Of a stretch of 64,000 nucleotides of DNA, positions 24,118 through 35,049 are shown one piece after another. This stretch comes from Candidatus Woesearchaeota archaeon. Its GTDB lineage: Archaea; Nanobdellota; Nanobdellia; Woesearchaeales; JAFGPW01. The notes beneath the pieces were generated by a model, which did not search any database, was not told where the DNA came from, and saw only the letters and a list, made by a program, of their open reading frames with translations. The DNA is taken from NCBI GenBank assembly GCA_016935985.1, contig JAFGPW010000001.1, positions 62,001 through 126,000 of the forward strand, read 5' to 3'. Position 1 is the first letter of the stretch, and each line of letters starts with the position of its first letter. A program made the position numbers and the translations under genes.

Positions 24118-24210
24118 GCCTCCGTAGCTTAGTGGTAGAGCGTGCGGCTGTTATCCGGCACTGTCCGGAGAGAAACCGCAAGGTCACCGGTTCGATCCCG
24201 GTCGGAGGCG
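24118..24210 (+). tRNA. tRNA-Asn(GUU) with ~21-nt intron after position 37
   Basis: Acceptor GCCTCCG/CGGAGGC, T-arm ACCGG-TTCGATC-CCGGT, anticodon stem TGCGG/CCGCA, loop CTGTTA|TCCGGCACTGTCCGGAGAGAA|A; TATA TTTTATAAAG at ~24085. Confidence 0.9.
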
Positions 24211-24218
24211 GTCATCAG

Positions 24219-24334
24219 GGGCCCGTAGCTTAGCCTGGTGGAGTGCCCGACTGATATATTGGACGTTACGTCCGATGGCCGGAACGCCAGTGACAGACAT
24301 CGGGTGGTCCGGGGTTCAAATCCCCGCGGGCCCA
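24219..24334 (+). tRNA. tRNA-Ile(GAU) with ~42-nt intron
   Basis: Acceptor GGGCCCG/CGGGCCC, T-arm CGGGG-TTCAAAT-CCCCG, anticodon stem CCCGA/TCGGG with CTGATA at the 5' loop side; intron contains GGACG-TTA-CGTCC hairpin. Confidence 0.87.
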
Positions 24335-32907: not shown

Positions 32908-33645
32908 ATGGACGTTCTCGAGGCCATCAGGACGCGTCGGAGCATCAGGAAATACCTCGCGATCCCGGTGGAGTGGGAGAAGATCGGACGCGTGCTCGAG
33001 GCAGGAAAGCAGGCTCCCTGCTCAGGCAATATCCAGAACTGGAAGTTCGTGGTGGTCCTCAATAGCCAGAACCGCCACAAAATCGCTGAGGCATCTCTCC
33101 AGCAGTACTGGATGGAGACTGCGCCTGTCCATGTTGTGGTGGTCGGCGAGAGCTCGAAGGCGAAGCAGTATTATGGCATCCGGGGCGAGCGGCTCTATAC
33201 CATCCAGAACTGCTCTGCGGCGATCGAGAACATGCTGCTCGCCGCCCATGCGATGGGCCTCGGCGCCTGCTGGGTCTCCGCATTCGACGAGAATATGGTC
33301 TCACGGGCGCTCAACTGCCTCGATGATGTCAGGCCTCAGGCGATCATCACGCTCGGCTACCCTGACGAAAAGCCGGCCGAGCCTGCCGAATACGTGCTCG
33401 AGGATGTCGTCTATCTCGAGAAGTGGAAGACTGGCTGCACGGTGGTGGCTGACATGGATTCTGCTCTGAATTACCAAAGCGCGAAGGTCATGAAGGCGCT
33501 GGATACCGGCAAGGGCGTGCTCGAGCGGATCGGCGAGGGCACGACCCGGCTCGGCGGGAAGATCGCTGACCGGTTCGGCCGCAAGATGCGCGAATTAGAG
33601 GAGAAGAAGGGCTCTGATAAGGAGCCGCCTGCCTGGTATAACTGA
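32908..33645 (+). CDS. Nitroreductase family protein
   Basis: MDVLEAIRTRRSIRKYLAIPVEWEKIGRVLEAGKQAPCSGNIQNWKFVVV. Confidence 0.92.
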   Translation: MDVLEAIRTRRSIRKYLAIPVEWEKIGRVLEAGKQAPCSGNIQNWKFVVVLNSQNRHKIAEASLQQYWMETAPVHVVVVGESSKAKQYYGIRGERLYTIQNCSAAIENMLLAAHAMGLGACWVSAFDENMVSRALNCLDDVRPQAIITLGYPDEKPAEPAEYVLEDVVYLEKWKTGCTVVADMDSALNYQSAKVMKALDTGKGVLERIGEGTTRLGGKIADRFGRKMRELEEKKGSDKEPPAWYN

Positions 33646-33649
33646 TTCT

Positions 33650-33679
33650 TTAACCTATATTTCAGGATAAATAGGTTAA
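33650..33679 (+). terminator. Hairpin after nitroreductase gene
   Basis: Perfect 9-bp inverted repeat TTAACCTAT...ATAGGTTAA. Confidence 0.4.
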
Positions 33680-33738
33680 TCTATGAAAATCTTTAAATAT
33701 GAGATTGAGCATTATAGGTAATATTAAGAAATGGTGAT

Positions 33739-33863
33739 AACACGGGTTTTTTTGGCGAAAAACGCGTGTTTCGGGGCGGTTTCGGTTTAAAGCGAAGATT
33801 TTGGCGGATTTTCGCTTGAAATGACCCAAAACCAAGCGTATCAGATTGTTTGGCGGTAATCTG
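33739..33863 (+). ncRNA. Candidate structured RNA / leader: three stem-loops each presenting TTGGCG in the loop
   Basis: Hairpin 1 33739-33770, hairpin 2 33790-33817, hairpin 3 33842-33863; see findings. Confidence 0.5.
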
Positions 33864-33978
33864 TACGGCGTATTCTAGGGAGTAATAAGTCCAGACTAGG
33901 ATTTAAAGTTTTCGGTAGTGCGGGCTCTAGTTTGTGACTTATGCATTCGACCACACAAAACGGAGAGAGGGGAAAAAT

Positions 33979-35049
33979 ATGGATTTCATCGTGGAAAACG
34001 CTATGCAGGGCAACGCTAACACGTTTGAGGGGGTGGAAGTGCGCCAGGCCAATATCAAGGTCATCGGTATCGGCGGCGCAGGCAACAATATGGTCAACTG
34101 GCTGTACCGCAAGGGCATCCAGGGGGCTGAGATCTTCGCATGCAACACTGACCAGCAGCACCTCGAGTTCATAGAGGCTGACCACAAGTTCCTGATAGGC
34201 CATGAGGTCACCCGCGGGCTCGGCTGCGGCGGCTTCCCGGAGAAGGGAGCAGAGGCCGCGCGCGAGAGCATGACCGATGTCAAGGAGGCCCTCAGGGGGG
34301 CTGACATGACCTTCGTCTGCGCAGGCATGGGCGGCGGCACCGGCACCGGCGCGGCGCCCGTCGTCGCGAACGTCGCGAAGGAGGCGGGATCGATCGTCAT
34401 CGGCACGGTCACCATGCCCTTCAAGATCGAGCGGGCGCGGGTCGACAAGGCAGAGTTCGGCCTCCAGCAGCTGCGGGGGGTATCAGACACGGTCATCGTC
34501 ATCGACAACAACCGACTGGTGCAGATTGCGGGCAACCTCCCGATCCAGCAGGCGTTCGCGGTCGCGAACGAGCTCATCGCCACCATGATCAAGGGGATCG
34601 TCGAGACGATCGCGGTCCCGAGCCTTGTCAACCTCGACTATGCCGACGTCAAGACCATCATGACGAACGGCGGGGTCGCGGTGATAGGCGTGGGAGCGTC
34701 CGACACCAACAACCGGGTCGAGGAGTCGGTCAAGGGGGCGCTATCAAATCCCCTGCTCGACATCAATTATGAAGGAGCCACGGGCGCGCTCATCCACGTC
34801 CATGGCGGGCCTGACCTCACCTTGGAAGAGATTAACCAGGTGGGCGAGCTCGTCACCGAATCCCTCGATGAGGATGCGAACGTCATCTGGGGCGCGCGCG
34901 TGACCGACAACATGAAGGGCAAGCTCACCGTGATGACCATCATCACCGGCGTCAAGTCGCCGTGGATCCTGGGAAAAGAGGTCGCTGCCGAGAGGCAGCA
35001 GGAGGTCGAGGAGCTCAACGACGAGCTGGGGATCGAGATCATCCACTGA
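33979..35049 (+). CDS. ftsZ: Cell division protein FtsZ
   Basis: IKVIGIGGAGNNMVNWL, FVCAGMGGGTGTGAAPVVA, VIDNNRL, NLDYADVKTIMTNGGVAVIG. Confidence 0.97.
   Translation: MDFIVENAMQGNANTFEGVEVRQANIKVIGIGGAGNNMVNWLYRKGIQGAEIFACNTDQQHLEFIEADHKFLIGHEVTRGLGCGGFPEKGAEAARESMTDVKEALRGADMTFVCAGMGGGTGTGAAPVVANVAKEAGSIVIGTVTMPFKIERARVDKAEFGLQQLRGVSDTVIVIDNNRLVQIAGNLPIQQAFAVANELIATMIKGIVETIAVPSLVNLDYADVKTIMTNGGVAVIGVGASDTNNRVEESVKGALSNPLLDINYEGATGALIHVHGGPDLTLEEINQVGELVTESLDEDANVIWGARVTDNMKGKLTVMTIITGVKSPWILGKEVAAERQQEVEELNDELGIEIIH

Follow-up and report, generated by a model that had tools for sequence, protein, structure and literature searches.

What might be the function of three hairpins that stand in front of an archaeal ftsZ gene with stems that have nothing in common and loops that are the same? 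The locus lies in a 64-kb stretch of DNA from a Candidatus Woesearchaeota archaeon, which is referred to as the window, its numbering being used throughout. The three stem-loops, with unrelated stems and a common TTGGCG loop, occupy positions 33739-33863, which places the array 115-240 nt 5' of the ftsZ ATG (33979), between a nitroreductase-family gene that ends at 33645 and ftsZ itself. A sequence-only reading of the window had described these hairpins, and they were confirmed where it had placed them.

33684-33700, + strand: P1, the putative array promoter (BRE/TATA, TGAAAAT-CTTTAAATAT), conserved across 62 loci
33739-33770, + strand: hairpin 1, arms 33739-33751/33758-33770, loop TTGGCG at 33752-33757
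33786-33821, + strand: hairpin 2, arms 33790-33799/33808-33817, TTGGCG at 33801-33806
33842-33863, + strand: hairpin 3, the last, arms 33842-33849/33856-33863, loop TTGGCG at 33850-33855
33873-33882, + strand: conserved TTCTA and purine-rich motif (TTCTAGGGAG), 71 loci aligned on TTCT
33901-33908, + strand: TATA2, the likely core promoter P2 of ftsZ, position conserved in relatives
33979-35049, + strand: ftsZ, Pfam Tubulin 160 bits, FtsZ_C 113 bits

The Array and Its Neighbourhood

The ftsZ product matches solved FtsZ structures, the top match being annotated FtsZ homolog 1, and its start is the conserved ATG (MDFIV) and not the GTG at 33934. Directly 3' of the nitroreductase gene there is an inverted repeat, TTAACCTATATTTC/GATAAATAGGTTAA, at 33650-33679, likely an end-of-transcript hairpin that separates this gene from the array. 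Elsewhere in the window, two tRNA genes (24118-24210 and 24219-24334) are longer than normal at 93 and 116 nt, which is probably explained by introns or long variable arms.

Within the array, a hairpin is retained in relatives at the position of hairpin 1, the first, and the pairing of hairpin 2 extends imperfectly to 33786/33821. The loops follow one another at exactly 49 nt; a general rule of 49-nt spacing was dropped, as relatives do not share it and the spacing between their loops is irregular. On either strand the array segment folds better than its dinucleotide shuffles do (z -2.8 on the + strand, z -3.8 on the - strand), so that the strand is not fixed by folding energy alone. TTGGCG occurs 32 times in the window, with a stem of at least 6 only at the three sites of the array and at one isolated site. 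No further array, whether of TTGGCG or of its complement, was detected in the organism's own 1.4-Mb genome, where close TTGGCG pairs are no commoner than a reversed control pattern, and a covariance model run over this genome matches this array only.

A Selected RNA Structure in Front of One FtsZ Gene

The named relatives are Woesearchaeota and related DPANN genomes, nearly all of them metagenome-assembled. When 60 relatives were searched with the DNA, essentially ftsZ alone aligned and hardly anything upstream, so that the array is missed by sequence search alone. Direct reading of the upstream regions of many relatives nevertheless revealed hairpins of their own, with the same loop on different stems. 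Among 73 named loci of the order, 58 have TTGGCG within 600 nt 5' of ftsZ, and there the motif is found 141 times in the sense and 5 times in the antisense orientation, at a density of 3.2/kb as against 0.18/kb elsewhere in the same loci. A contiguous stem of at least 5 bp surrounds 79 of the 141 upstream copies and 1 of 195 copies elsewhere. Counted over distinct TTGGCG sites in the 73 loci, stems of at least 5 bp are present at 98 of 167, as compared with a mean of 7.6 and a maximum of 19 when 3' flanks were swapped between sites (2000 trials). Some copies of the motif do lie outside hairpin loops.

A search that made no use of the motif led to the same loop: 120 upstream regions yielded 200 hairpins of at least 7 bp, where shuffled sequences gave 65-89, and the commonest loop 6-mer in the 200 was TTGGCG, in 85 of them. 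Compensatory pair types are seen at 8 of the 8 pairs of the hairpin set, a count that is not independent evidence, since the set was chosen for its stems. As TTGGCG lies nearly always on the sense strand, and in the loops of inverted repeats unrelated to one another, an RNA is indicated rather than double-stranded DNA. The structure, its selection and its linkage to ftsZ are thus strongly supported.

The placement of the hairpins was then followed across whole genomes, as the sequence-only reading had suggested, with a single-hairpin covariance model (R1, built from 31 hairpins, 8 pairs). Of 118 whole genomes of the order, 65 have a match; 85 of the 100 matches, distributed over 57 of these genomes, lie on the same strand as an ftsZ and 92-304 nt 5' of it. 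Two further matches, in one genome (G035), adjoin an ftsZ match from the DNA search that is absent from the distance list, and three of the remaining matches in the order (L174, L176, L177) belong to arrays truncated close to the end of a contig. When the phylum was sampled more widely, matches appeared in 13 genomes from other orders of the class, and these stand 5' of ftsZ in 13 of 13. Most genomes encode at least two FtsZ homologues, and where several are listed the array adjoins only one. Lone TTGGCG hairpins without an FtsZ match within 3 kb were also noted at about 1501 in L171, 1567 in L173 and 1607 in L175; they are probably due to chance.

The number of loops in the array ranges from 2 to 7 across lineages. 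Three Woesearchaeota loci (L065, L057 and L038) have no recognisable array 5' of ftsZ; the array is thus not essential to every ftsZ, and some lineages have lost or replaced it. The gene on its other side varies, being one for an HTH protein, a nitroreductase or a divergent Dph5-like methylase, and in other orders a divergent GatD gene. That this neighbour differs by lineage argues that the array moves together with ftsZ, and beside a divergent neighbour the array needs a promoter of its own.

By the sequence-only reading's own test, relatives keeping neither stems nor loops would have refuted a selected RNA structure, and the opposite was found, with loop-bearing hairpins retained in many different families of the order and also in the class beyond it, their stems changing freely. 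The preference for such a structure over a DNA repeat is supported, and the tentative link to ftsZ has gained from the retention of the hairpins directly 5' of this gene in the order and beyond it, any effect on FtsZ being only inferred.

Promoters and Flanking Motifs

Two TATA-like boxes, noted from the window near 33690 and 33899, prove to be conserved in position among relatives: TATA1 (TTTAAATA) at 33692-33699 and TATA2 (ATTTAAAG) at 33901-33908. In 62 loci aligned on TATA1, the TATA box and a BRE (AGAAA) reach or exceed roughly 1 bit per position, and because the BRE is conserved although it was not among the criteria for choosing the sites, P1 is argued to be a real promoter. The consensus, AGAAA-TATTTAAATA, precedes the first loop by 42-60 nt in most loci, including places where the upstream gene is divergent. 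Transcription from P1 is an inference from conserved sequence, without expression data, and the transcript would be expected to begin near 33716-33724.

Downstream of the hairpins, the TTCTA motif with its purines follows the last loop at 16-17 nt in many relatives and precedes TATA2 by 27-29 nt in 51 of 67 loci. It is a candidate for the 3' end of the RNA or for an ftsZ promoter element, and could also be the binding site of an ftsZ activator. Termination at this motif is only a weak inference, because a U-tract precedes it in only some loci, the locus in the window not being among them. TATA2 itself lies 60-154 nt ahead of ftsZ across the loci, and with P2 between the array and the gene, ftsZ transcripts may lack the array. 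The order of the parts is constant among loci: BRE/TATA, hairpins, TTCTA with purines, second TATA and ftsZ.

Loops That Change as a Set

Loci without TTGGCG often repeat another motif in its place, such as TTGGTA, TGGGTT, GGGGC, AGGCGG, CGGCTA or AACCCC, and for most of them the repetition exceeds that of dinucleotide shuffles (0-22 of 500 shuffles reach the observed level). In L051 and L140 motif repetition on its own was not above dinucleotide shuffles, and in L117, where TTGGTA occurs four times, the filter of the shuffle test did not apply. CCCCAA-type motifs take the place of GG motifs 5' of ftsZ in L096, L103 and L150; the last has AACCCC three times, and the CCCCAA type nearly matches, in reverse complement, the TGGGTT loops found in other lineages.

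The change can be followed within one family (f39), in which several genera have TTGGCG and three differ while retaining hairpins. Here TTGGCTT is found in L194, which keeps one TTGGCG and so has a mixed array, TTGGGCA in L202, and TGGACA in five species of one genus (L198-L201 and L203), in hairpins such as GTTTTG-CTGGACA-CAAAAC (L199) and GCTTTT-CTGGACA-AAAAGC (L201). Loops that alter as a set in some lineages while the stems drift are what would be expected if a factor acting in trans reads the loops, and would be hard to explain otherwise. The idea of a loop-recognising partner, raised by the sequence-only reading, is strengthened by these concerted changes; the identity of the loop and its concerted change in several lineages are shown, whereas the partner is still an inference.

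Known Families and Candidate Partners

Rfam 15 (4227 families) gave no match at E<=5 for 33640-33980 of the window and none at E<=0.5 among 13 related loci. No earlier description of such an RNA was found in open papers, subscription journals and preprints being outside the scope of the search, and ftsZ is not mentioned in Weinberg 2010. The CsrA family (PF02599) has no match in 41 genomes, the organism's own included, in a search whose control detects the family in E. coli, B. subtilis and T. maritima; MraZ (PF02381) has no match in the own genome and has one in 3 of the 41. Both were ruled out as the partner, as neither is in the own genome. Mimicry of the tRNA anticodon loop was dropped as well, since the variant loops do not keep U33/R37.

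How the Array May Act on FtsZ

The array is probably, if far from securely, a new structured RNA family that regulates ftsZ in cis, its repeated loops being displayed to a partner as yet unidentified. In this proposal P1 would serve the RNA as a promoter of its own and direct transcription toward ftsZ; the product, conserved, structured and some 130-190 nt long, would present 2-7 copies of one loop, UUGGCG in most lineages, on stems free to vary. A dedicated but unidentified partner, most likely an RNA-binding protein, would read several loops at once, and their occupancy would set how much P1 transcription passes TTCTA into ftsZ, or would feed back on P2. Local control of ftsZ is taken as the most likely task because the RNA stays before one ftsZ paralogue throughout the class, and an RNA-binding protein acting in cis is favoured because the linkage is so strict. 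The partner, its chemical nature, the cis mode and the regulation of ftsZ are only inferred, in the absence of expression data. A further step is plausible but leans to the doubtful side: in it the loops of this class-wide RNA would be a code specific to each lineage and would evolve together with a single dedicated partner, every loop of an array being replaced when the specificity of the partner shifts and the stems drifting freely, and the pair would be the regulator dedicated to ftsZ, and so to cell division, in these DPANN archaea.

The main rival is a separate small RNA acting in trans, a CsrB-like sponge that would free the mRNA targets of a regulator, with ftsZ merely a neighbour under shared control. 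Multivalent loops and an own conserved promoter are the anatomy of CsrB and RsmZ (PMC7652899), and this explanation, though unlikely, cannot be set aside; such an RNA should, however, leave ftsZ sometimes, whereas nearly all clear arrays are at ftsZ despite the changed upstream gene. Its expected targets, other TTGGCG hairpins, are not above the search threshold in the own genome, an absence by which the partner of a cis-acting RNA also seems dedicated, and CsrA is lacking throughout the genomes searched. Some bacterial sRNAs use repeated identical loops as antisense seeds, and concerted change of the loops could track an altered target site if they paired with the ftsZ mRNA or with other mRNAs. 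That the loops are such seeds is nonetheless improbable: the ftsZ leader and coding region show no enrichment of CGCCAA, nor of sequences complementary to the variant loops, and at 457 local translation starts CGCCAA has 1 site (0.03/kb against 0.08/kb for permuted motifs), so that pairing with ftsZ or at these starts is unlikely, no other part of the genome being covered by the test.

A DNA operator, in which a transcription factor binds direct repeats at the promoter of ftsZ in the manner of bacterial MraZ boxes, would account for a TGG-core motif repeated 5' of ftsZ in one orientation. A factor that binds double-stranded DNA needs no ever-changing inverted repeats around its sites, though, and these are irregularly spaced in organisms of which few have MraZ, which makes an operator very improbable. 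Chance hairpins or a functionless DNA repeat had nothing in their favour beyond the small size of a single locus, and are as good as eliminated by the conservation, the swap controls and the genome-wide placement.

To our knowledge, no RNA-level regulator of ftsZ is known in archaea, and none is described in the open papers searched; we likewise know of little on the control of division in small DPANN symbionts. The array RNA is conserved throughout the order and extends to other orders of its class of tiny uncultured archaea; its loops make it easy to spot, and of several FtsZ paralogues it marks one. Concerted change of the loops amounts to a natural experiment in which the partner can be identified by co-variation and the co-evolution of RNA and partner is directly testable.

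Comparison with Known Systems

MraZ boxes are repeats of a TGG-core motif 5' of bacterial ftsZ clusters, and the array shares with them a repeated TGG-core motif in front of ftsZ; unlike them, it has a hairpin context, irregular spacing and a genome without MraZ. In the trp leader bound by TRAP, a protein reads repeated sites in a leader RNA, and the array likewise consists of several copies of a short site 5' of a gene, followed by a possible transcription-control element; its sites, in contrast, lie in hairpin loops, and a second promoter stands between array and gene. A further likeness is to the bacterial sRNAs CsrB/CsrC and RsmY/Z, with multiple hairpins, unrelated stems and one common loop motif. 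In these sRNAs one RNA carries many copies of GGA in hairpin loops, and selection with CsrA preferred loops of six nucleotides (PMC7652899). The ftsZ array differs from them in being archaeal and fixed to ftsZ, in genomes where CsrA was not found, in having UUGGCG and not GGA (GGACA loops occur in one genus only), and in having 2-7 sites, where they have about 20, with a loop motif that switches between lineages. By analogy, then, the ftsZ array would be an RNA that works like the CsrB kind and is not a member of it.
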